Positions 1 to 19,172 of a DNA stretch of 19,328 nucleotides are shown one piece after another. Positions within the stretch are counted from its first letter, which is position 1, and every line of letters begins with the position of its first letter. The position numbers and the translations under genes were made by a program. Where the stretch lies: contig JAOTYS010000035.1 of NCBI GenBank assembly GCA_029861795.1, forward strand, positions 1 through 19,328, in the 5' to 3' direction. The stretch comes from Gammaproteobacteria bacterium (lineage in GTDB: Bacteria; Pseudomonadota; Gammaproteobacteria; Arenicellales; JAOTYS01). Under the pieces are notes generated by a model that saw only the letters and a list, made by a program, of their open reading frames with translations, did not search any database and was not told the DNA's origin.

Positions 1-447
1 ACCTTGGAGAATCTTCGCGGTAAAGTCGTCGTCGTCACATTCATCTATACCGCCTGCGCTGACACCTGTCCGCTGCTGACAACCAAAATGGTGGGCATCC
101 AGAAGACACTCGGTGATGACTTCGGCTCGAAGGTCCATTTCGTTTCCATTACCGTCGATCCGGAGCGTGACCGGCCCGAGGTACTACAACTCTATGCGGC
201 GGCGCTGGGCTGCGACCCGGCGGGGTGGGCATTCGTGACGGGAACTGAGACCGAAATCACAGACGTTGCACGCGCTTATGGTGTCTACAAGAAGAAGCAA
301 TCCGCAGGAGATGTGGATCACAACCTATTGACCTCTATCATCGACCAGCAAGGCATGCTCCGCGTCCAATACATGGGTGACCGATTCGATCCGCACGAGT
401 TCATGGATGATCTGCAAAGCCTTCTCGCGGCGGACCCGGCCTCGTGA
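1..447 (+). CDS. SCO1/SenC family copper chaperone, 5'-truncated by the window edge
   Basis: Thioredoxin-fold, membrane-associated protein of the SCO1/SenC/PrrC family, which delivers copper to the CuA site of cytochrome c oxidase and can act as a thiol-disulfide redox protein. The metal-binding CADTCP motif (CxxxCP) has its cysteine codons at 52-54 and 64-66. The third copper ligand, histidine, is in the DVDHN segment at 319-321, and the ITVDPERDRPE stretch is typical of the family. The reading frame is open to base 1, so the N-terminus with its membrane anchor lies outside the window. The TTG at base 4 is not a credible start. The stop at 445-447 is 13 bp before the likely GTG start of the histidine kinase, so the genes are probably cotranscribed. 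The family call is firm. The link between SCO and the kinase signal is inference. Confidence 0.93.
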   Translation, partial: TLENLRGKVVVVTFIYTACADTCPLLTTKMVGIQKTLGDDFGSKVHFVSITVDPERDRPEVLQLYAAALGCDPAGWAFVTGTETEITDVARAYGVYKKKQSAGDVDHNLLTSIIDQQGMLRVQYMGDRFDPHEFMDDLQSLLAADPAS

Positions 448-460
448 CAGATATGGCCTT

Positions 461-2050
461 GTGACAGATTTGCGTCAGCGAGTAGTGGCCGGGATACCGG
501 CAGCGGAATGGCTGCCGCAGCTGGTCGCGCGGGTTCGGGCCACAGTCCATACCAAGTTGCTCGTCGCCTTCTTGGGCATCGTGGTCATGTTGGTTGCGCT
601 TGGTGCAGTGGGGCTGCGTGTGTTGCAGGAATCAAACCAACGCGCCGAAAGTCTTGTTAACCTGCAACAGAAGATCGCCGCCTATCGACAACTACAGGAC
701 AACACCACCGAACAGCTTTACACTGTGGTATCGGCGTTGTTGACTACGGATCAAAGCACGCTCGATGCGATGCGGCGTCAGCTGAACCAGTTTGCCTACG
801 ACTTTGATCGAGCGCAATTCGTCGCCCACGACGAGATCGACCTCCTCAATCAGATCGAGGCCGACTATGCAGAGCTCATCAGGGTAGGCACCGATATTAT
901 CGAGTTGACCCGCGCCGGCAAGTTAGCGGAGGGGCGGGAGCTTCAGCGCAAGCAAGCGATTCCACTCGCAGATCGGCTGGAGCGCTACACCAATTCGCTT
1001 GTCAACAAGGCCGAAGCCGACATGATCTCGAGCGCCGAGGTGAGTAACCAAGCGTACATCACCTCTCAAACGGTGGTCATTGGTGTCGCGTTGGTCAGCA
1101 TCATCTTGGCACTGGTGCTCGGCTATGCGATCTCCTGGTCTCTGGTGGGACCCGTCAAGCGAATGGATGCCCGATTCAAAGAGATCGCCCGCGGAGAGTT
1201 CTCGGGAGGAATTGAGGTAGCGAATCGGGATGAGCTAGGGGACCTCGCAGAGAATCTCAATAACATGTCTGAAGAGTTGGGGCGCTTGTATAGGGAGATC
1301 GAGGCGACAAGCCGACACAAGTCCGAATTTCTAGCCAATATGTCCCATGAGCTGCGCACTCCATTGAACGCCATCATCGGATTTTCAGAGGTATTGGCCG
1401 AGCGCATGTTCGGTGAGTTGAATGAAAAACAGGCGGAATACATTCAAGACATCCACGAGTCTGGCCAGCATTTACTTTCACTAATCAACGATATCTTAGA
1501 CCTCTCCAAGGTCGAAGCCGGCAGAATGGAGCTGGAGCTAAGTAAGTTCGATATAGGAGCCGCGTTGGAGAATGCCTTTACACTCGTCAAAGAGCGCATG
1601 GTCCGCCATGGGGTAAACCTCGATGTCGAGCTGGCCCCAGACTTGGGAGACATGGTTGGCGATCAGCGAAAATTCAAACAGATCCTCCTCAATTTGCTGT
1701 CGAACGCAGTCAAGTTCACCAATGAAGGTGGCAGGGTTAAGGTCGAGGCTGCACGTATGTCGGACAGGTTAGAGGTGACGGTCAGTGACACCGGTATCGG
1801 CATCTCGTCGGAAGATCAACGGGTCATCTTCGAGGAATTTCGCCAAGTGAGCTCGGATCACGGAAAAACGAGCGAGGGAACCGGGTTGGGGCTTACCCTG
1901 ACGAAGAAGTTTGTGGAGATGCATGGCGGGAAGATCTGGGTGGATAGCAAGATCGGTAAAGGATCCACGTTTGGATTTTCACTGCCACTCACGCCATCAG
2001 AGAGTATTCAAGCCTTGACCACCTCGTCAGATGAAGCAGTCGCGAACTGA
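461..2050 (+). CDS. Membrane sensor histidine kinase (HAMP-HisKA-HATPase)
   Basis: Inner-membrane histidine kinase of about 529 residues from a GTG at 461. The frame is open back to an ATG at 377, but that start would overlap the SCO gene by 71 bp and add a non-conserved arginine-rich stretch, so GTG 461 is preferred despite a weak ribosome site. Order: TM1 at about residues 33-53, a periplasmic helical region of about 150 residues resembling a four-helix-bundle sensor, TM2 at about 204-226, HAMP at about 227-280, HisKA with the H-box MSHELRTPLN (phospho-acceptor His296), then an ATPase domain with N-box LLNLLSNAVKF, DTGIGI and GTGLGL. All catalytic boxes look intact. It has no receiver domain, so the two downstream receivers are the natural phosphate acceptors. 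The ligand cannot be told from sequence. Confidence 0.95.
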   Translation: MTDLRQRVVAGIPAAEWLPQLVARVRATVHTKLLVAFLGIVVMLVALGAVGLRVLQESNQRAESLVNLQQKIAAYRQLQDNTTEQLYTVVSALLTTDQSTLDAMRRQLNQFAYDFDRAQFVAHDEIDLLNQIEADYAELIRVGTDIIELTRAGKLAEGRELQRKQAIPLADRLERYTNSLVNKAEADMISSAEVSNQAYITSQTVVIGVALVSIILALVLGYAISWSLVGPVKRMDARFKEIARGEFSGGIEVANRDELGDLAENLNNMSEELGRLYREIEATSRHKSEFLANMSHELRTPLNAIIGFSEVLAERMFGELNEKQAEYIQDIHESGQHLLSLINDILDLSKVEAGRMELELSKFDIGAALENAFTLVKERMVRHGVNLDVELAPDLGDMVGDQRKFKQILLNLLSNAVKFTNEGGRVKVEAARMSDRLEVTVSDTGIGISSEDQRVIFEEFRQVSSDHGKTSEGTGLGLTLTKKFVEMHGGKIWVDSKIGKGSTFGFSLPLTPSESIQALTTSSDEAVAN

Positions 2051-2086
2051 TCACTACAACATGCGCTATGGGGGGCAACTCACGTT

Positions 2087-2482
2087 ATGGGTGATGAGCT
2101 GATCTTGATCATCGAGGACAACGAAAAGAATCGCAAATTGCTGCGAGACGTCCTGAATGCCAAAGGCTATCGGACATTGGAGAGCGAGACGGCTGAGCAC
2201 GGGATTGAGATCGCTCGTGAGAGTCACCCAGCACTAGTCCTGATGGACATTCAGCTGCCGGGGATCGACGGCATCGAAGCCCTACGACGGCTGCGCGCGG
2301 ACTCGATGACAGCGCATATTCCAGTCATCGCGGTCACCGCGTCAGCAATGCATTACGACCGTGCGCAGATTGAGAGCGCAGGGTTCGACGGGTATCAATC
2401 CAAGCCGGTTAAGATCAAAGAAATCCTCGAAGCAATACGTGAAACGCTTGATCGCGGTGTCGGTGAGGACATCTGTGAGTAG
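2087..2482 (+). CDS. Single-domain response regulator, DivK-like
   Basis: 131-residue CheY-fold receiver with no output domain, so it must act through protein contacts or as a phosphate shuttle. Key receiver residues are all present: acidic pair E10-D11, phospho-acceptor D54 in LMDIQLPG, T84 in AVTASA and K106 in SKP. The EDNEKNRKLLRDVL and MDIQLPGIDGIE stretches are closest to the DivK type of receivers, which typically partner with HisKA kinases. A G-rich ribosome site (GGGGG around 2070-2074) lies about 12 bp before the ATG. The gene starts 36 bp after the kinase stop, and its last 8 bases overlap the GTG start of the receiver-cyclase, implying translational coupling. The DivK name describes similarity only; a role in cell-cycle control is not implied. 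Confidence 0.93.
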   Translation: MGDELILIIEDNEKNRKLLRDVLNAKGYRTLESETAEHGIEIARESHPALVLMDIQLPGIDGIEALRRLRADSMTAHIPVIAVTASAMHYDRAQIESAGFDGYQSKPVKIKEILEAIRETLDRGVGEDICE

Positions 2483-3587
2483 TTCAGCAAAAATTCTGGT
2501 GGTCGACGACACGCCGATGAACGTCAAGCTGTTGGCTGATCGGCTTTCGGCAAAGGGTTACGACATCGCTACCGCAGGGTCTGGTGCGGAAGCGCTGAAA
2601 CGCATGGACGAATGGCAGCCCGACCTCGTGCTCTTAGATGTCGTGATGCCAGGAATGAGCGGGTACGAGGTATGTCGTAAGATACGAGAAAATACTAACA
2701 CCAGTATTCTTCCGGTAATCATGATTACTGCACTCGATCCCGGTGAAGAGAGAATCAAAGGACTCGACGCTGGAGCCGACGACTTCCTAAGTAAGCCGGT
2801 AAATACCGCTGAACTGGAAGCACGCGTTCGATCTTTGCTGCGCATTAAGGAACTGTACGACAAGGTACAGTCGCAAGCCGCGGAGCTTGCCCAGTGGAAT
2901 AAGGAGCTAGAGTCACGGGTACAAACGCAGGTGGAGCAAATGGAGCGCCTGGCCCGACTTAAGCGATTCCTTTCACCGCAGGTCGCCGAATTGATCGTCT
3001 CTTCTGGCGACGAATCAAGGCTCAACAGTCATAGAAGCCAAATCGCCGCGCTATTTTGTGATATACGCGGATTTACTCGTTTTTCTGAGACTGCCGAGCC
3101 GGAAGACGTTATTGCTGTCCTGCAGACTTATCACGAGGAAATGGGCAAGCTCATTCATGAATTTGAAGGAACCATCGACCACCGGGCAGGGGACGGTATT
3201 ATGGTGCTGTTCAACGACCCCTTACCGTGTGACGATCCAGGCGTGCAGGCGGTGCGGATGGCGGTCGCCATGCGTAAGCGCATGAACGTTCTTGCGGGTG
3301 AATGGGGAAAACTCGGCCACGAGCTCGGATTTGGAATAGGTATGTCGATGGGTTATGCAACGCTCGGTCTGGTTGGATTTGAGGGGCGCTTCGACTACTC
3401 CGCACATGGAAGTGTCGTCAACCTAGCGGCGCGGTTGTCTGATGAAGCAAGTGATGGTCAGATACTAATTAACCAACGAGCTTATGCTGCAGTCGAGGCT
3501 CAAGTCGAGGCGGAACCGATTAGGGAGCTATCTCTAAAAGGTTTTCAGCAACCGATAAAAGCTTTCAATATAAAAGGCCTGAATTAA
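2475..3587 (+). CDS. Response regulator with class III adenylate/guanylate cyclase output domain
   Basis: 370-residue cytosolic protein. The N-terminal receiver (about 1-122) has acidic pair D11/D12, phospho-acceptor D55 in LLDVVMPG, T85 and K107. A predicted coiled-coil linker spans about 125-165. A class III nucleotide cyclase domain spans about 187-370. Both metal-binding aspartates are present (D196 in FCDIRGFT, D240 in AGDGIM), as are the transition-state residues N316 and R320 in VNLAAR. The usual purine-selecting lysine position carries His236, and the partner Asp/Thr position is Ser309, so substrate choice (ATP or GTP) is uncertain. GTG 2475 is preferred over an upstream ATG at 2361, because the intervening 38 residues lie in the receiver gene and are not receiver-like. 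A GGTGAGGA ribosome site sits about 6 bp before the GTG. It is probably the output of the upstream kinase. Confidence 0.93.
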   Translation: MSSSAKILVVDDTPMNVKLLADRLSAKGYDIATAGSGAEALKRMDEWQPDLVLLDVVMPGMSGYEVCRKIRENTNTSILPVIMITALDPGEERIKGLDAGADDFLSKPVNTAELEARVRSLLRIKELYDKVQSQAAELAQWNKELESRVQTQVEQMERLARLKRFLSPQVAELIVSSGDESRLNSHRSQIAALFCDIRGFTRFSETAEPEDVIAVLQTYHEEMGKLIHEFEGTIDHRAGDGIMVLFNDPLPCDDPGVQAVRMAVAMRKRMNVLAGEWGKLGHELGFGIGMSMGYATLGLVGFEGRFDYSAHGSVVNLAARLSDEASDGQILINQRAYAAVEAQVEAEPIRELSLKGFQQPIKAFNIKGLN

Positions 3588-5485: not shown

Positions 5486-6549
5486 TTATAACCATTTTTT
5501 CTTTTTGAAATAGAAAAGCAGAATTAGGGCTATTCCGACAAAACCAATCCATAGTGCCGGGTAAGCCCACTTCCATTTGAGTTCGGGCATGTACTTAAAA
5601 TTCACACCGTATATGCCAGCTACGAAAGTCAACGGTATAAAAATGGACGCAAATACCGTTAGGACTTTCATAACTTCATTCATTTTGTTACTAACACTAG
5701 ATACGTAGATGTCTAGCAAACCAGATACCATATCTCTGTACGACTCCATCGCCTCTGATACCAGCAATGCATGATCATGCACATCCCGGAAATATATCCG
5801 TGTCTTGCCCTGAATTAACGCAGATTCACTGCGCCCAATCTCACCTAGTAATTCTCTTAGTGTGAAATCGATCTCCGCGTAACTATTAACTCGCGTTTGA
5901 TGCGTTGAATGGTCGCCAGTGTTTCTGGTGTCGGATTAGTTAATAATTCCTCCTCCACTGAATCAAGGACTTCATCCAACGAGTCCTGCAAATGGAAGTA
6001 TAAATCCACCACTGTATCTAGGATAGCGTAGGATAGGAAATCTGCTCCTCTGCTTCTGAAATGGCCTCTGCTGTTTTTGATTCGCTGTCTGACAGGTTCG
6101 AATATTTGGTCTTGCTTCTCTTTGAACGTAAAGACGTCATTTTTTAGCAGCAAAACGCTAATCTGCTCATGGTTGACAGTGAACTTATCTCCTTCCAGTG
6201 ACAATCCTTTAAATACAAAAAACAAATAGTCATCATGCTCTTCGAACTTGGGTCTTTGATGGGTGTTCAGTATATCTTCAAGCACGAGTGGATGAATTCC
6301 AAAATGCTGACCGACAGCTTCTATTACGCCTACGTCCTTTAACCCTTCAATATTCACCCAGCTGATTGTGTCCTTCTCTTTGTATGGAAGGAGCTCGTTA
6401 ACTGACTGAACGGTGTGCTCCTCGAATTCTTGCTGACTATAGCTAACAACAGAGATTCGAGTTTCCCCTTCTAGGACTTCGCCGACATGTACAAGTGACC
6501 CCGGCGGCAATCCTGCTTTTTTTGACGCACTGCTTAATGATTCAACCAT
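5486..6549 (-). pseudogene. corA: CorA-type divalent cation transporter, interrupted by a one-base frameshift
   Basis: Reading from the ATG at 6549, the frame gives the cytosolic N-terminal domain of a CorA Mg2+/Co2+ channel (segments PLVLEDILNTHQRPKFEEHD and IKRELIVTRRSI) and stops at 5857-5859. The next frame, from about 5860, continues without loss as LRELLGEIGRSESALIQGKT, then the pore helix MNEVMKVLTVFASIFIPLTF, the signature YGVNF with MPEL, TM2 and the terminal KKKKW. One base appears missing at about 5861-5866: five bases, TCACA on the coding strand, stand where two codons (usually for Trp-Pro) are expected. Corrected length is about 354 residues, normal for CorA. No other disruption is seen, so a recent mutation or a sequencing error is as likely as real decay. 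The signature is GVN rather than the usual GMN. Confidence 0.88.
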
Positions 6550-8177: not shown

Positions 8178-10397
8178 GTGCGAGCTTTCCTGTCCACAGT
8201 ATTGGTCTTGTGTCTCACACAGGAAAGCAACGCAGCGCCTGCAACTCGCACCGTCAGTTATCCGATGTCGGCGCTCACATCAAAGACGCTCGACACACCC
8301 GGGCGACGTACTGTAAAACCGATCGACCCGGGGCTAGACACGCCGGTGATCGGGCGGTCTGTGTTCGACTTTCTGTTTGCCGTTGAGCAAGACGGCGAAG
8401 TCGCCTACGACGTACCGTACCCATTTAGCGTTTTGCTCGCACGCATTCGGGCGAGGCTTTCGACGAGCGCGGGGGATCCACTCAAGCGGGTATTGATCCC
8501 CATCGGCCGCTCGCTGCATCGCCATGCCGCAGCACCCGATTATTTTCGCTATCCGCGGGTAGTGATAGGCGTGGATGCGGAACCTGCACAACGAGAGGGC
8601 GAGGCCGGCCTGTTGCTCAGGGATCGCCTCTATCTAGGCTACCAGGAAAAGGCGAACAGTATCGAGGTGATTAGCTATAACAATGAAGCGGGTCGGTTCG
8701 AGTTTCAATTGGTCCACAATTATGCGCCCGGACTGAAACCACGCGTGCACTATGCCAACCGGGCATTGTGCATGAGCTGTCATCAGAATGCAGCTCCGAT
8801 TTTCCCGCGACCACCATGGCTAGAAACGGATGCCAACTTCAAGATCGCCACCCGCATTAGTGAAGCTCGTCCCAGCGCCTATACCGATTCCCTGCTTCTT
8901 TCAAGATTCGGTCCGCCGTCTATTCTCGATTACAGCAGCGACCGGGCAACTTACTATTCGAGCTATCAACTTCTTTGGCGTGAAGGGTGTGGAGGTGACA
9001 CGCGCGAGGCGGTAAGTTGTCGGGCGGCAGTTTTGCTTGCATTACTGCAATACCGACTTACGGCTTCGTGGAACTTCGATGAAGGGTCGCCGCGGTATCG
9101 CGACGAATTTGTGCCCGTGGTGACCCGCAACTGGCAGCAGCGATGGCCGAACGGACTCCACATCCCGACCGCCGATATCCCCGACCGCAATCCTCTACTG
9201 ACCGGGGAGCACATTCATGCCGAGCTCGATCCGCTGGCAGTGCGTCCGCCTCGAGCCACTTGGACCAATCCAAGACCCATCATTTTTACCAGCATGATCA
9301 AGCGTCTTGCCGAATTCCTCACCGAATCCGACGTCAAGCGACTCGATCGGTTCCTGTATCGCTCGACGCTCGAGAGCGAGGTCGCGCACGAAATATATGA
9401 AGGCACATGCCAGTTAGTAAAAACCCCCGAATCAAACGACGCTTGGCAACTGCAATTTTCCTGTAACGACTCGGAGCAGGACACCACACCAATCATTAGT
9501 GTCGGAGGTCGCATCTTGATTGAGGGCGAACGGCTGCAACGAGGAAAGATAGATCACCTGGTGCTGGATGGGATACCAGAGAACCTCTTCCTCAATCTGG
9601 GAAATGCAAGCGTTGATGACGATGGCCAAACTCGACAACTCAATGCACGTCTATTCTCAGATCAAGGCAAGCTTAACGCCAGGCGCCACGACGGCAATCT
9701 GATCCAGAGCATGACTCTGCGATGGCAACGATCAGCAGAGCTAGGGCGCGAGACGACTGCGGCCTTCAGAGGTCAAGTGCAGTTGAATATGCGTCACGAC
9801 TTTTCTAAGGTTCGCCGTGCCATTGCGCGCATGGTTGGGGATACCCTGGCGGCCAAGAGCGATGCCCTGTCATCAAAACCGTTTCGCCGGCGAAGTATAG
9901 TGAGCGCCGTCTACCGCAATCTAGATATGCCCGCAATTAAATGGTGCTGTCACGATGTGGCGTCGAGGCTACCGTTGGTCGTAAACGAGCACAAATCTGT
10001 CTCTCCAAGTACCCCGTATGACACTGGCTTCGAAGCGCTACAATCGTTTCGCAACCACTGTGGGGCTTGTCATCAGACTACGAACCAATTCCCACCTGGT
10101 TTCTTGCACGGAAATACCGAAAAAACCATGCGCAATCTTGAGCATTGCGCGCCACGGATACTTTACCGGCTGAGCATGTGGGAGCAATCCGCTAAGGCTC
10201 GGCCACGATCTCCTATGCCACCGCAACATTGGATCCGCAGGGTAACGTTGTCGGAAGAGCATTGGCGACAGAGCGAGTCACTTAACGCGCTTCGCTCTTA
10301 CGCTAGCGAACTACTTGGAGCAGAGAGAGTCTTCCAAGACGTAGACCAAGTCTTCACAACAGATTACGACGCCCTGCCTCCGTGTCTGCCTGACTAA
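8178..10397 (+). CDS. Large exported dihaem c-type cytochrome-like protein, uncharacterised
   Basis: 739-residue protein from a GTG at 8178, with a weak CAGG ribosome site 8 bp upstream. The N-terminus reads as a signal peptide (RAFLSTVLVLCLTQESNA, cleavage before APA), so it should be periplasmic. Two CXXCH haem-c sites are about 430 residues apart: C198-M-S-C-H202, followed by QNAAPIFPRPPW, and C628-G-A-C-H632, followed by QTTNQFPPGF. I recall similar CHQN-APIF-RP-W segments in long uncharacterised proteins of Proteobacteria, but no name is attached. The long middle part shows no catalytic motif I recognise, and no transmembrane helix beyond the signal is obvious. A role in periplasmic electron transfer or oxidation is inference from the haem sites. 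Confidence 0.85.
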   Translation: MRAFLSTVLVLCLTQESNAAPATRTVSYPMSALTSKTLDTPGRRTVKPIDPGLDTPVIGRSVFDFLFAVEQDGEVAYDVPYPFSVLLARIRARLSTSAGDPLKRVLIPIGRSLHRHAAAPDYFRYPRVVIGVDAEPAQREGEAGLLLRDRLYLGYQEKANSIEVISYNNEAGRFEFQLVHNYAPGLKPRVHYANRALCMSCHQNAAPIFPRPPWLETDANFKIATRISEARPSAYTDSLLLSRFGPPSILDYSSDRATYYSSYQLLWREGCGGDTREAVSCRAAVLLALLQYRLTASWNFDEGSPRYRDEFVPVVTRNWQQRWPNGLHIPTADIPDRNPLLTGEHIHAELDPLAVRPPRATWTNPRPIIFTSMIKRLAEFLTESDVKRLDRFLYRSTLESEVAHEIYEGTCQLVKTPESNDAWQLQFSCNDSEQDTTPIISVGGRILIEGERLQRGKIDHLVLDGIPENLFLNLGNASVDDDGQTRQLNARLFSDQGKLNARRHDGNLIQSMTLRWQRSAELGRETTAAFRGQVQLNMRHDFSKVRRAIARMVGDTLAAKSDALSSKPFRRRSIVSAVYRNLDMPAIKWCCHDVASRLPLVVNEHKSVSPSTPYDTGFEALQSFRNHCGACHQTTNQFPPGFLHGNTEKTMRNLEHCAPRILYRLSMWEQSAKARPRSPMPPQHWIRRVTLSEEHWRQSESLNALRSYASELLGAERVFQDVDQVFTTDYDALPPCLPD

Positions 10398-14399: not shown

Positions 14400-15344
14400 A
14401 TGACAGAGAAAACGACTAACTCCATTGCACATGTTACCTGTATTGGCACCGGCCTAATCGGTAGCGGATGGGCGGTGCATTTCTTGAGAGCAGGTCTGCA
14501 CGTCGTTGCTTATGACCCCAATCGCAACGCGGAGAAGTATCTGCGCGATACAGTCGACAGGGCCTGGCCGTCTGTTCAGAAACTCGGTCTTAATGCCCAC
14601 GCCTCTGTCGATCGTTTGCAGTTCACCGACGACTTGCCAGATGCCCTTGCGCACGCACAATTTGTCCAAGAGAGCGCGCCGGAGGACGAAACACTGAAGA
14701 TGGAACTACTCAAACAAATTGACGCGGTGGCTGCGCCTGATGTTGTCATCGCTTCGTCCAGTTCGAGTTTCCTGGCCGGACGCCTGCGCAGTAAATGCGA
14801 AGCTCATCCGTATCGGGTACTGGTGGGGCACCCGTTTAATCCGCCGTATCTGATTCCTTTGGTCGAAGTCGTCGGCGGAGGGAGTGCTGATCCGCAAGCA
14901 GTGGAGCGTGCCGTTCAATTCTATCGCGACAGTGGCAGCCGGCCGATTGTGCTGAAGAAAGACATCCTGGGATATGTGGCCAATCGTTTGCAGCTCGCCG
15001 TCATGCGCGAGATCTTTCATTTAGTGGCGGAAGACGTCTCGAGTGTCGCGGATATCGACGATGCTATAGCTTATGGACCGGGGTTGCGCTGGGCCATTAA
15101 GGGACCCTGTGAGATTTTTATGCTCGCAAGCCAACGCCCGGATCAATTTGCACAATTCATCGATTTGATCGTCGAAGAGATCGACATGGGTTGCGTCGCA
15201 GTGGACCGGCCTACAATCCGGGAGGGTGTTCGCGAAACCATTGTCCAAGGTGTCGGTGCAAATCAACCCAATCTATCGTTTGAACAACGCCTGCTGGAAC
15301 GGGATCAAAAGATTATTGCTCTGAGACAAACATTGGTTATATAG
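14400..15344 (+). CDS. 3-hydroxyacyl-CoA dehydrogenase/L-carnitine dehydrogenase family protein
   Basis: 314-residue NAD-dependent dehydrogenase from the ATG at 14400; a GTG at 14388 is an alternative and ribosome sites are weak for both. The N-terminal Rossmann fold has the GTGLIGSGW dinucleotide loop (G16-G23) and ends in AYDP, whose aspartate favours NAD over NADP. His144 in GHPFNPPYLIPLVEVVGG is the catalytic histidine of the family. The C-terminal helical domain holds DILGYVANRLQLAVMRE and YGPGLRWAIKGP. The last two and the length resemble carnitine dehydrogenase and other stand-alone 3-hydroxy-acid dehydrogenases more than fatty-oxidation FadB. It oxidises a 3-hydroxy acid or its CoA ester. 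Pairing with the upstream ligase suggests a short acid-catabolism pathway; the substrate is inference. Confidence 0.9.
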   Translation: MTEKTTNSIAHVTCIGTGLIGSGWAVHFLRAGLHVVAYDPNRNAEKYLRDTVDRAWPSVQKLGLNAHASVDRLQFTDDLPDALAHAQFVQESAPEDETLKMELLKQIDAVAAPDVVIASSSSSFLAGRLRSKCEAHPYRVLVGHPFNPPYLIPLVEVVGGGSADPQAVERAVQFYRDSGSRPIVLKKDILGYVANRLQLAVMREIFHLVAEDVSSVADIDDAIAYGPGLRWAIKGPCEIFMLASQRPDQFAQFIDLIVEEIDMGCVAVDRPTIREGVRETIVQGVGANQPNLSFEQRLLERDQKIIALRQTLVI

Positions 15345-15399
15345 CGAATTATCCGAGCAAGGTGTGGTCAGGTCGCCACTCCAATGAGAGCATAGAGAT

Positions 15400-15485
15400 G
15401 AGTCCATATACGGATATACGTAAGCAGTCGTACCTCAGCATCGTAAATCACGTTGCTTGCAAACGAGCAGGAGTCCATATACGGA
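15400..15485. promoter_or_regulatory. Two copies of a 15-bp near-palindromic repeat, candidate operators
   Basis: GAGTCCATATACGGA occurs exactly at 15400-15414 and again at 15471-15485, 71 bp apart. The core TCCATATACGGA is symmetric at 10 of 12 positions about its centre, the form expected of a site for a dimeric DNA-binding protein. It lies in the 164-bp convergent gap between the dehydrogenase end and the pilZ end, so it is not upstream of any annotated gene in the window. The role is therefore open: operator for an unseen transcript, a repeat-family member, or chance. Confidence 0.35.
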
Positions 15486-15508
15486 CGTTCAGACTCTACC
15501 CTCGCCTA

Positions 15509-15895
15509 TCACAGGGTGTGGGTAGGGCGATCGGGGGTCAGAACACTGCCCAGAATAGCTTCTATTTTGCCCCGAGCCTTCTCTTCTTCCTTGAATTGAA
15601 TCCCAACACCGGCGGCACGATTTCCCTGGGCGCCAATCGGCGTCATCCACACGATGTGGCCCGCGACCGGAATTTTGTCCTTCTCTTCCAATAGAGTCAG
15701 CAGTATGAATACCTCTTCACCTAGCTTGTATTTTTTGTTCGTAGGCACAAATAATCCTCCCCCCTTTAAGAACGGCATATATGCCGAATACAGGGTATTA
15801 TTGTCCTTAATGGTCAGGGACAAGACAGTGGGACGTGTTTTTCCGTTCGATCCGAAAGAACCTTTACCCTTGTCAGAATTAGTTCTGTCTGCCAT
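15509..15895 (-). CDS. pilZ: Type IV pilus PilZ-domain protein
   Basis: 128-residue cytosolic protein closely matching the namesake PilZ of Pseudomonas and Xanthomonas: LSLTIKDNNTLYSAYMPFLK, GGLFVPTNKKYKLGEEVFIL, KIPVAGHIVWMTPIGAQGN, RAAGVGIQF and the terminal RPTHTL. Pilus-type PilZ lacks the RxxxR c-di-GMP motif, and none is visible here. In known systems it binds the pilus ATPase PilB and the EAL domain of FimX rather than the nucleotide itself. Here the first 20 or so residues are a charged, flexible extension. It normally follows holB, but here it lies 72 bp downstream of a REC-GGDEF-EAL gene on the same strand, probably one transcript. Confidence in identity is high. Confidence 0.95.
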   Translation of the reverse strand: MADRTNSDKGKGSFGSNGKTRPTVLSLTIKDNNTLYSAYMPFLKGGGLFVPTNKKYKLGEEVFILLTLLEEKDKIPVAGHIVWMTPIGAQGNRAAGVGIQFKEEEKARGKIEAILGSVLTPDRPTHTL

Positions 15896-15967
15896 CTAAT
15901 CTCATCCGCCTGAAGCAAGTAGCCCAAACAAATCCGTATGCTAACTGAAGGATTTGACAAGAAGTTG

Positions 15968-17788
15968 TCAAAATTCCCCAGGTGATATTGCCTCAGCAAT
16001 TGGTCGGGGAACGCTTACGCGATAGCCTTGGGCATAATCGATTCCGATCTCTCGCACCCTTTCGAGGATCTGATCATTCTCAACGGACTTGGCAATAGTT
16101 CGCTTGCCCATCACTTTCGCAATGCGATTGATTGACTCGACTAGCGATAGGTCGATTGGATCGTCGATGATTTGTTTTACAAGCGTGCCATCGATCTTCA
16201 AGAAACTCACCAACAGGTTTCTGAGGTAGGAAAACGAGGATAATCCACTTCCAAAACCATCCAGTGCAAATCTGCAGCCCGATGAACTAAGGGTGTTGAT
16301 AAAGCGAGTAGCACCTGCAAAGTTCGCGATCGCGGCCGATTCCGTGATCTCAAAACAAATCTTTTCGCGCTGGATCTGGGTCTCGTCAAATACCCGGTTA
16401 ACAAACTCTAGAAACGCCTCATCCCCCAGTGAGTGGCCCGACAAGTTGATGCTACACAAATATAGGTCGTCCAGATGAAAGGGGTGATCTCCGAGCCATT
16501 TGAGTGCAGTTTCGACCACCCAGCGGTCAATTTTGCTGGATATGCCAAAGCGGTCCGCGGCCGAGAAAAGAGTGTCTGGCATCACTATGTCCCCTTGTTC
16601 GTCTTCCATGCGCAGAAGCAATTCATAGAACTTTCCAACTTTCTCTACTTGCTTGAGGGGTACGATTTCCTGCAAATCAAGACGGAACCGATTCTGCTCC
16701 AGCGCACTTTGAATGCGTGATATCCACAGCATCTCACCGTGGCGCCGCACCACCTCCACATCATCCTCGTGGGTGACGTGGATACGTTTGCCGCCTTTGT
16801 CCTTGGCTTCGTAACACACAGCATGCGCTGCACCGAGGACCGTCGGGATACTCTTGCTCATCTCAGAGATGGCCACGATGCCGATGCTCATCCCGATATG
16901 GAAACTCTGGCCGTCCCAAAAAAATCGGGAATTCTCGACCACGTTACGCAGGCAGTCTGCCACGCGTCGTGCCGACTCAAGGGAACAGCGTTCGAGTAAG
17001 ACACCGAACTCATCGCCCCCCAAACGCCCCAAGGTGTCCTGTTTCCGTATCCAGCCGCGCAGCAACTGACCGAGCTGGCGCAGTAATTCGTCCCCTACCA
17101 CATGACCGTAGGTGTCATTGATGGTTTTGAACTGATCCAAATCCATATAGCACAGAGCGTGCTGGACGGATTCACATTTCGCCGAGTCCAACAGTTTTTG
17201 CATGCGGTGTTCAAACTCGACACGGTTCACCAACCCAGTCAAACTGTCATGGCTTGCCTGGTGCAACAAGGACGTGCTCTCCGCTACCCCAATTTCTAAC
17301 CTGCCGTGTGCCTGACTTAATGCGGTGGCCGCTGCCGCGTTGGCACGTGTGAGGTCAATACGCTCAGAGCACCGGTCGAGTGTCGCCACCAGCTCGTCAG
17401 CGTGAAAAGGTTTGCAGAGATAGTCATAAGCTCCTTCTTTGAGGGCAGCGATGGCCGTGTCAGCGGTAGCAAAAACGGTCATGACCACGCACAAAACGTC
17501 CTGGCGTAGCCGCTTGAGCGAAGTAATCAGATCTATGCCGCTGCCTTGCCCCAGCCGAACATCGATCAGGACCACGTCTGCGCCAAACGAGACCAATGAT
17601 CGCTGCGCGTCACGAGAGTTGTAGGCAAGTTCCACCTCGTATTCTTCCAGTGTAAGCATAGTGAGGAGGGTGTTCGCAAAGTCGCGGTCGTCCTCAACAA
17701 TCAAAACCCGAGGTTTTGATTGTGGGTCCACATTCTTCAGCTCGCCGGATGTCGCGGCCGTGGTGCGGAGATTGTGAATCGTTGCCAT
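15968..17788 (-). CDS. REC-GGDEF-EAL c-di-GMP signalling protein with degenerate EAL domain
   Basis: 606-residue cytosolic protein. An N-terminal receiver (about 26-145) has E32, D33/D34, phospho-acceptor D76 in LIDVRLG and the CKPF lysine. A short helical linker follows. The GGDEF domain (about 180-345) carries HDSLTGLVNR, DLDQF and an intact RLGGDEFG (257-261), so diguanylate cyclase activity is plausible. No RxxD inhibitory site is evident at the usual position. The EAL domain (about 355-600) keeps INLS, EITES, LKIDG and DYAQGY. However, EAL reads ELL (389-391), the DDFG metal pair reads DGFG (Asp510, Gly511), and the AExVE motif reads AKSVE (Lys567), replacing the proposed general base. 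Phosphodiesterase activity is probably lost. It lies just upstream of pilZ, like a FimX-type partner, though FimX has a degenerate GGDEF and a PAS domain. Confidence 0.93.
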   Translation of the reverse strand: MATIHNLRTTAATSGELKNVDPQSKPRVLIVEDDRDFANTLLTMLTLEEYEVELAYNSRDAQRSLVSFGADVVLIDVRLGQGSGIDLITSLKRLRQDVLCVVMTVFATADTAIAALKEGAYDYLCKPFHADELVATLDRCSERIDLTRANAAAATALSQAHGRLEIGVAESTSLLHQASHDSLTGLVNRVEFEHRMQKLLDSAKCESVQHALCYMDLDQFKTINDTYGHVVGDELLRQLGQLLRGWIRKQDTLGRLGGDEFGVLLERCSLESARRVADCLRNVVENSRFFWDGQSFHIGMSIGIVAISEMSKSIPTVLGAAHAVCYEAKDKGGKRIHVTHEDDVEVVRRHGEMLWISRIQSALEQNRFRLDLQEIVPLKQVEKVGKFYELLLRMEDEQGDIVMPDTLFSAADRFGISSKIDRWVVETALKWLGDHPFHLDDLYLCSINLSGHSLGDEAFLEFVNRVFDETQIQREKICFEITESAAIANFAGATRFINTLSSSGCRFALDGFGSGLSSFSYLRNLLVSFLKIDGTLVKQIIDDPIDLSLVESINRIAKVMGKRTIAKSVENDQILERVREIGIDYAQGYRVSVPRPIAEAISPGEF

Positions 17789-18527
17789 GCGTAACTCTGA
17801 CCTATGAATGTTTTCTTACCGTGCTCGATTTGATTGAGCTTGGGGGGCAGTGGAACAGTAAAGCCTGCTACTGACCTAAACTTTAGAGTACCTAGGCGGT
17901 GCTTGCGTAAATTATTGTAAAAACGGCTTGATATGAACGAATAGAAAAACGCTGAGTTCAGAATTTTTCTGGATAAAACCCATGTTTCTGATGGCCAAGC
18001 ATGACATGGGACGCCGGCATCGTCTGTAGGGCGAACGCCTTTGGGCGAGGTTTGGCTAAAGGTTGACTTCTGGTCCTCGATAGGACGACGTCTGCTTTTC
18101 GGTCCTTTTGAACCGACATTCAGAAGCTGAAGCACGAAGGACTGGATCACGCCCTGAGTTGTTCCGTCAAGTCTAGGTTGGGGTCCCCGCTTGATTGAGG
18201 GGCGGTGATCTTCTCCGTTTCAGCGCCTTCAGATAGGTAACTGCACTGCACGCAGTTCGTGTCTGCCAACAACGATACAGGATTCGCTGAGCCAGAATCA
18301 GAACATAGGTGCTGAGCCGGTTACGAAGATGCGCCGCCTGGAAGGCTGCCCTACATCGTTGATGTTGACGGCACCATAGTTCCGGGCTCCACAAGCAGTC
18401 CTTCGAAGCGTCCCTCACACTGGCGATTTTTTGGTCGAGGGTTGCCTGTCAAAGGTGTTAAACTATTCCGAGCGGTTAGACATCTACCTGTAAAACGCAC
18501 GAAGACACCGTCGATGGAGATATCCAG
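17789..18527. other. Gene-poor 739-bp stretch
   Basis: It lies between the divergent REC-GGDEF-EAL gene and the secreted lectin-like gene, so it should hold both promoters. Open frames on the minus strand at 17737-18150 and 18173-18418 lack ribosome sites and recognisable domains and are not called. A weak REP-like unit sits at 18026-18048. The remainder looks like decayed or non-coding sequence; I recognise nothing else. Confidence 0.5.
18026..18048 (+). repeat. Possible fourth REP-like unit
   Basis: Begins GTAGGGCGAA, has a short stem CGCC-TTTG-GGCG and ends GGCGA, 23 bases in all, as in the cluster at 10478-10540. Its CGCC-TTNN-GGCGA core is close to the unit at 10435-10456. The stem is short, so it may be a degenerate copy or chance. 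Confidence 0.35.
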
Positions 18528-19172
18528 ATGAAGAAGTTGCTATCTATGCTTGCTTCAAGCCTGATCGTTTTTCTCAGCGCATCCTATGCAACAGCCCAGG
18601 ACAATGGCATGAGTTTTTTTATTACCAGCGTGAATCCCGGCAACGGCGGCGATCTCGGCGGACTTGAAGGGGCCGACGCCTATTGCCAAAAGTTGGCCGA
18701 ATCAGTCGGTGCGGGTGGACGTACTTGGCGAGCGTACTTGAGCACTGAGGCGCCTGACAAACGAGGCGAAAGCGCCAGACTCCGAATCGGTCAAGGCCCT
18801 TGGTATAACGCCAAAGGCGAGCTGATCGCCAAAGACCTCACCGAGCTGCACCTCTACAATAAAACCATCCTTTTAGAGACGGCGCTCAATGAAAAAGGCG
18901 AACTCGTCAACGGACGTTACGATAAGCCGAATGAGCACGATATACTGACCGGCACCCAGGATGATGGCATGGCTTATTTTCCCGATGATGCGGACCACAC
19001 CTGTAACAACTGGACCAGCAGTGACGCAGGCAGCGCCCAGGTTGGTCATCATGATCGCCACGGTGGCGGCAATACCTCATGGAACTCCGCTCATGCCACA
19101 AGAGGTTGCAGCCTTGAGGCAATCGCAAGCACCGGTGGTGCCGGTTTGTTTTATTGTTTTGCTGCAGACTGA
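18528..19172 (+). CDS. Secreted protein resembling DUF1554/lectin-like domain proteins
   Basis: 214-residue exported protein. A clear signal peptide (MKKLLSMLASSLIVFLSASY, then ATA and cleavage before QD at residue 24) directs it to the periplasm or outside. The mature part starts with FFITSVNPGNGGDLGGLEGA followed by DAYCQKLAES, then TWRAYLST, RLRIGQGPWYNAKGELIA and, near the end, CNNWTSS, WNSAH and GLFYCFAAD. This order (N-terminal GGL-GAD-C-LA, middle AYLS, C-terminal CNNWTS) resembles the DUF1554 domain known from Leptospira and other secreted C-type-lectin-like folds. Four cysteines in the mature part could form two disulfides. GGAGA lies 7 bp before the ATG. It stands alone, and the ligand is unknown. 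Confidence 0.85.
   Translation: MKKLLSMLASSLIVFLSASYATAQDNGMSFFITSVNPGNGGDLGGLEGADAYCQKLAESVGAGGRTWRAYLSTEAPDKRGESARLRIGQGPWYNAKGELIAKDLTELHLYNKTILLETALNEKGELVNGRYDKPNEHDILTGTQDDGMAYFPDDADHTCNNWTSSDAGSAQVGHHDRHGGGNTSWNSAHATRGCSLEAIASTGGAGLFYCFAAD

Follow-up and report, generated by a model that had tools for sequence, protein, structure and literature searches.

The window, by which we mean the whole stretch of 19,328 nt analysed here, carries two adjacent genes on the minus strand. The upstream ORF (15968–17788) encodes a REC-GGDEF-EAL protein of 606 aa, whose GGDEF-EAL module was assigned to the RbdA type from Pfam and from 5xgb, its best PDB match in both sequence and structure. The downstream ORF (15509–15895) encodes a 128 aa type IV pilus PilZ, identified from its PDB matches and conserved sites. 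As the first-pass annotation had read it, the ORF list places pilZ 72 bp downstream of its neighbour (gap at 15896–15967). In a scan of positions 15300–18600 no sigma-70 site was detected (shuffle mean 3.2), and the single terminator-like site lies inside the REC-GGDEF-EAL gene (shuffle mean 3.3); both counts are below their shuffle means, and the only usable outcome is that the gap is free of terminator-like sites.

Only a single contig is known to carry the pair, and a CorA-like gene elsewhere in the window is frameshifted, so the assembly or the genome is not flawless. Both points would fit an assembly chimera, in which the pilZ end has been wrongly joined to an unrelated GGDEF-EAL region. 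We consider this very improbable, as both genes are complete and separated by a short gap, and their GC contents (0.49 for pilZ and 0.53 for the REC-GGDEF-EAL gene) are near the window mean of 0.53.

Pfam finds three domains only in the 606 aa protein: Response_reg (REC) at aa 28–137 (17378–17707, minus strand), GGDEF at aa 178–334 (16787–17257, minus strand) and EAL at aa 358–592 (16013–16717, minus strand). A PAS domain was not found. In the alignment the REC domain retains D33, D34, D76, T104 and K126, which we take to be the canonical REC residues. In PDB sequence searches the protein scored 450 bits with RbdA/PA0861 (5xgb) and 162 bits with FimX (4j40), and the EAL domain alone scored 267 and 102 bits, respectively, FimX being the next match after RbdA. 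Foldseek, run with the model of the near-identical protein P0001, placed three RbdA structures on top with 5xgb as the best. The protein is thus RbdA-type by sequence and fold kinship over GGDEF-EAL, and its earlier description as a FimX-like module is not supported.

The protein search scored 7997 sequences, 6460 of them at an E value of 1e-100 or better, and the best 120 were listed. Among those listed, P0001 is the nearest and differs at one residue (A254, where the window has Gly, as do 7 of the 173 homologues described below). P0002 and P0003 come next, with 70% identity across 74% of the query; PAS families are recorded for both in the search listing and none for P0001. A quick tree of 65 rows, calculated without bootstrap and with P0001 left out, unites the window protein with P0002 and P0003 in one clade (SH-aLRT 99), with branch lengths of 0.43 for the window protein and 0.18 and 0.21 for these two sisters. 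We considered that the protein might represent a conserved pilZ-linked family. This was rejected: both sisters have full EAL motifs, and pilZ is near relatives of the gene in 0 of 80 loci with flanks of up to 8 kb, an outcome that the first-pass annotation had itself named as refuting. Separately, in P0003 the phospho-acceptor of REC is replaced (D76N) while the EAL motifs are whole, which is the reverse of the window protein.

To compare single positions, the window protein was aligned with 173 homologues, comprising 119 of the best 120 matches (P0001 excluded) and 54 proteins from examined loci; these rows are not independent, and some loci carry the same gene twice. The EAL motif itself reads ELL (aa 389–391; 16616–16624, minus strand). 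The idea that this is a broken EAL motif was rejected, as RbdA, P0002 and P0003 also have ELL and the glutamate of the motif is Glu in 173/173 homologues. Two other substitutions, both reported by the first-pass annotation, are of a different kind. At the metal-binding DD site the window protein has D510-G511 (16256–16261, minus strand); among the 173 homologues, position 511 is occupied by Asp in 170, Asn in two and His in one, and DG occurs in no other row. Where the catalytic-base Glu is expected, followed by Phe, it has K567-S568 (16085–16090, minus strand); at position 567, 172 of the 173 homologues carry Glu and one carries Lys. None of the 173 has both 511 and 567 altered, so the changes are not a family trait and the conservation in close homologues that was to be checked was not found. 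All 57 translated locus proteins (the 54 in the alignment and three further ones) keep D511 and E567. As far as seen, the decay of EAL motifs thus appears private to the window protein. P0001 also carries G511 and K567, which makes a sequencing error less likely, with the caveat that P0001 may not be independent of the window.

Three papers bear on the consequence of these changes. The aspartates of the DDFGTG motif coordinate the catalytic metals (PMC5301497), an EAL domain with a non-conserved EGVE base has been classed as inactive (PMC12900916), and RmcA lost phosphodiesterase turnover when its DD was mutated to NN (PMC7825114). Since the metal-site DD and the catalytic-base Glu are both changed, phosphodiesterase activity has very likely been lost from the EAL domain, in line with its dead look in the first-pass annotation.

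Whether such a domain could still hold c-di-GMP was assessed with the contacts described for X. citri FimX (PMC7288161), which we placed on X. campestris FimX; the letters agree at 14/14 positions, and T680 falls outside the fragment. Seven of the 14 contacts are identical in the window protein (Q463, L480, R481, P491, D508, Q673 and G674). This count is no evidence against binding, because P. aeruginosa FimX, a true c-di-GMP binder, has eight of the same 14. The c-di-GMP contact F654 (PMC7288161), a Phe in both FimX proteins, RbdA, P0002 and P0003, corresponds to Ser568 in the window protein; this position is Phe in 139/173 homologues. E653 corresponds to Lys567, and to Pro in P. aeruginosa FimX. 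With the equivalent of F654 absent, the proposal that the protein senses c-di-GMP through its EAL domain is not secure, and the label of EAL receptor must be regarded as uncertain.

The GGDEF domain was described as intact, which is correct for the GGDEF motif (aa 257–261; 17006–17020, minus strand) and for the RxxD I-site formed by R248 and D251 (17036–17047, minus strand). However, the domain deviates at three well conserved sites. Position 322 is Asp in 172/173 homologues and His in the window protein (D322H; 16823–16825, minus strand). Positions 333 and 334 (R333G and N334K; 16787–16792, minus strand) are Arg in 152 and Asn in 156 of the 173 homologues, and the window residues Gly and Lys are each found in 7/173. 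R446 of PleD contacts the GTP phosphates (PMC7288161), and from the spacing to the invariant K329 we infer that R333 would be its equivalent. As R333G would remove this residue and D322H is also unusual, the label of active cyclase is uncertain, and the claim that the protein makes c-di-GMP is not secure.

The absence of PAS may be traced to the segment between REC and GGDEF. In P0002 and P0003 the PAS region is flanked by two coiled-coil repeats, and the linker of the window protein (aa 145–178; 17255–17356, minus strand) aligns over its full length with either of them; the linker resembles the first repeat up to about residue 173 and the second from L174. This alignment was done on P0001, which is identical to the window protein in this region. 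The pattern suggests that an in-frame deletion between the two coiled-coil repeats removed the PAS domain. In the P0001 model the linker lies within a single predicted helix (aa 130–179) linking REC to GGDEF, and the REC-GGDEF half of the model matches WspR (3bre) with a TM score of 0.77 of the target over 322 columns in Foldseek. The model was built from 21 aligned sequences and has a mean pLDDT of 85.0 (67 for residues 511–520) and a pTM of 0.53, so the domain folds are usable and the domain arrangement is not.

Relative rates were compared for the window protein and its sisters. Over GGDEF-EAL the window protein has 45–51 changes against 22–26 for P0002 with four out of four outgroups (p 0.0007–0.011), and, as a weaker difference, 36–44 against 22–30 for P0003 (p 0.044, 0.46, 0.0092 and 0.052). 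GGDEF alone is faster at p < 0.05 in five of eight comparisons and EAL alone in two of eight, none of the latter against P0003. The acceleration is thus not special to EAL, and since GGDEF carries changes too the decay is not confined to it. No acceleration of REC was seen in the six comparisons with data.

These results bear on the possibility of relaxed selection, by which the GGDEF-EAL half is decaying and pilZ has become adjacent through a chance rearrangement. This would account for the longer branch of the window protein and for its 17 changes at 172 sites that are invariant in eight other rows, spread across both domains, where P0002 has 3/158 and P0003 8/163; the absence of the arrangement from the other pilZ loci examined fits as well. 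Yet the ORF runs through 606 codons free of stops, the REC residues are kept without acceleration, the GGDEF motif and I-site are retained, and P0001 repeats the protein with a change at a single residue. Because REC is not faster and its residues are retained, this is not plain whole-gene decay, and relaxed selection may act on the output half. As an account of the whole locus we find relaxed selection unlikely, while giving it a real chance.

Judged from its sequence, the second gene is a genuine pilZ of the type IV pilus kind. Its 128 aa product contains Pfam PilZ and gave four PDB matches, all of them Xanthomonas-type PilZ including complexes with FimX and PilB (best E value 8.8e-41); with NCBIfam TIGR02266 it scored 42.7 bits, under the 68.7-bit cut-off. 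At 39 sites conserved in at least 90% of 132 orthologues it shows one deviation, compared to an orthologue mean of 1.2. In a PilZ tree it belongs to a set of eight rows (95/84), its own terminal branch being 0.28 long and the neighbouring forks too weak for a claim of descent. Of the residues with which X. citri PilZ contacts FimX or PilB, F49, L51 and W69 are kept, while I10 (Val) and M117 (Leu, as in 10/132 orthologues) are conservatively changed. F49, L51 and I10 serve towards FimX and W69 towards PilB (PMC8389850). Across the orthologues F49 is found in 131/132, L51 in 130/132 and W69 in 132/132, and since these contact residues are kept almost everywhere they identify no partner.

To place the pilZ neighbourhood in context, we compiled 134 other pilZ loci from 133 genomes, of which 18, 28 and 28 were stored and 60 were hand-picked and fetched, with others passed over, partly near contig ends. 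pilZ matches were found in 64/109 genomes of one set and 263/369 of another, and weaker-scoring pilZ were left out of the 134. Flanks were mostly 1.5 or 3 kb, and in 121/134 loci neither flank was shorter than 1.4 kb. By a neighbour rule derived here rather than taken from a published definition, holB is present in 131/134 loci, tatD in 116/134 and one or both in 134/134, and one of the two lies within 300 bp of pilZ in 131/134. In contrast, tblastn found neither holB nor tatD in the window, where a convergent dehydrogenase-like gene lies downstream of pilZ. None of the 134 loci has a GGDEF-EAL neighbour of pilZ; partial matches to the REC-GGDEF-EAL query occur in two, L254 having a REC stretch 1.8 kb away and L295 a GGDEF stretch 2.4 kb away. 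The neighbourhood of the window pilZ is thus truly unusual among the loci examined, in agreement with the first-pass annotation, which had noted its departure from the usual holB-pilZ context. Literature searches, confined to open-licence PMC papers and for most of these to the title and opening of the abstract, listed no report in which the pilZ of a type IV pilus neighbours a GGDEF-EAL gene. Among the genomes listed with a match there is one pilZ per genome, except for two in each of G009, G058 and G406, the second being a fragment in G009 and G058. pilZ is displaced as judged within the window, and a second, holB-linked pilZ may lie elsewhere in the genome.

A dead-looking EAL domain adjoining pilZ calls to mind FimX. 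In such an analogue with reversed logic, REC would control c-di-GMP synthesis, the dead EAL would hold c-di-GMP, and the signal would pass via PilZ to PilB. The retained REC residues, GGDEF motif and I-site are consistent with this, as are the PilZ residues described above, with I10 as Val (roles from PMC8389850), and a contact count that does not speak against binding. W445 of FimX is a PilZ contact (PMC11656802) outside our aligned fragment, and W355 of the window protein would be at its place if the alignment is gap-free. On the other hand, the PilZ contact residues are near-universal, even in the order of G002, where a FimX search matched 36/109 genomes and 27/27 translated loci have DD and E. 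F654 and E653 are replaced by Ser568 and Lys567, the PilZ-contact stretch M488/M489/A493 (the review numbers the Met 487 and 488) reads I, V and T, R333G would remove the PleD R446 equivalent, and the kinship is with RbdA. Moreover, PMC8389850 reports that binding was not seen between purified P. aeruginosa FimX and PilZ. Weighing these points, we regard the FimX analogue as quite unlikely.

Among known systems, FimX shares with the window protein an N-terminal REC and a C-terminal EAL that probably has no phosphodiesterase activity, but the window protein lacks PAS and with it the REC-PAS-GGDEF-EAL architecture. The GGDEF motif of FimX is degenerate while that of the window is intact, unusual as R333G and D322H are, and the aligned positions 510, 511 and 567, which are D, G and K in the window protein, read S, Q and P in P. 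aeruginosa FimX. The FimX REC is without a phosphorylation site (PMC8389850), unlike the window REC, in which it is intact. The bit scores set FimX kinship far below that with RbdA, the F654 contact is changed, and the PilZ link is by binding in Xanthomonas FimX and by neighbourhood only in the window. RbdA (PA0861, Pseudomonas aeruginosa) is the closest solved GGDEF-EAL module, with ELL and the I-site common to both; it is a phosphodiesterase with DD and the catalytic Glu, whereas the window protein has DG and K, an N-terminal REC and no PAS. Studies disagree on the cyclase activity of RbdA, which one of them observed and another did not (PMC7825114). WspR (PA3702), a REC-stalk-GGDEF response regulator, matches the REC-helix-GGDEF half of the window model through 3bre and differs in that the window protein has a C-terminal EAL. 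The window PilZ is like that of the holB-pilZ-tatD cluster in sequence and conserved sites, and differs by its upstream REC-GGDEF-EAL gene in place of holB and tatD. In Acidithiobacillus mobile elements, GGDEF-EAL and PilZ genes occur in one vicinity (PMC6416229), and the likeness is one of gene vicinity. Scans of part of the window ORFs with Pfam and NCBIfam found no mobile-element genes.

Taken together, we favour, with moderate confidence, a receiver-controlled output protein of the RbdA GGDEF-EAL type in which PAS and the phosphodiesterase site have both been lost, and which lies directly upstream of a displaced type IV pilus pilZ; this combined loss is, as far as seen, found only in the window protein. 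The dead EAL and the unusual pilZ context of the earlier interpretation are kept here, and its FimX-like module is not. In the sequence of events we propose, the deletion between coiled-coil repeats would have fused REC to GGDEF via one helix, as in WspR, and the EAL would no longer cleave c-di-GMP. The two genes are probably on one transcript. Phosphorylation of REC would tune GGDEF dimerisation and any remaining cyclase activity, and the usual role of PilZ as a partner of PilB is most likely unchanged. Direct signalling from the REC-GGDEF-EAL protein through PilZ is possible. A bolder version holds that pilZ was captured by a receiver-controlled c-di-GMP synthase and that the dead EAL now provides PilZ with a platform for docking or sensing, so that FimX-like control would have evolved twice, the second time out of an RbdA-type enzyme that produces its own signal at the pilus motor. 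This seems to us slightly more doubtful than the FimX analogue, and a FimX-like circuit as such has a low probability.

A displaced pilZ beside a c-di-GMP protein represents a natural experiment on the partners of PilZ, given that pilZ is normally found with holB and tatD in the loci examined. If the two proteins interact, the pair would show that the role of FimX can arise again from an ordinary phosphodiesterase, and would provide a testable case of an EAL domain that changed from an enzyme into a partner. If they do not, the gene offers a readable case of GGDEF-EAL remodelling, with PAS deletion, EAL death and a receiver that was kept.

Several other features of the window were observed. 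Just downstream of pilZ there is a perfect 15-bp direct repeat, GAGTCCATATACGGA, at 15400–15414 and 15471–15485 (starts 71 bp apart); shuffles average 0.01 matches, and the repeat is absent from 308 fetched loci. The 164-nt gap region just downstream of pilZ, folded as minus-strand RNA, has a z of −2.1, with 3/200 shuffles folding at least as well. At 5486–6549 (minus strand) lies the gene recognised from its sequence as presumably encoding a CorA-like transporter; a frameshift near 5857 divides it into two ORFs, and its GC content is 0.39–0.43 against 0.53 for the window. At 377–3587 (plus strand) Pfam identifies three consecutive genes, for a histidine kinase, a single-domain response regulator and a REC-nucleotide cyclase, the last being a second receiver-controlled cyclase in the window. 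The 739 aa protein encoded at 8178–10397 (plus strand) is without a Pfam match at E 0.001 and contains two CxxCH motifs. The best matches of other window proteins were distant, at 54% for the dehydrogenase and 57% for the histidine kinase (109 genomes each), and 40% for an acyl-CoA ligase and 36% for a glutathione transferase (20 genomes each).
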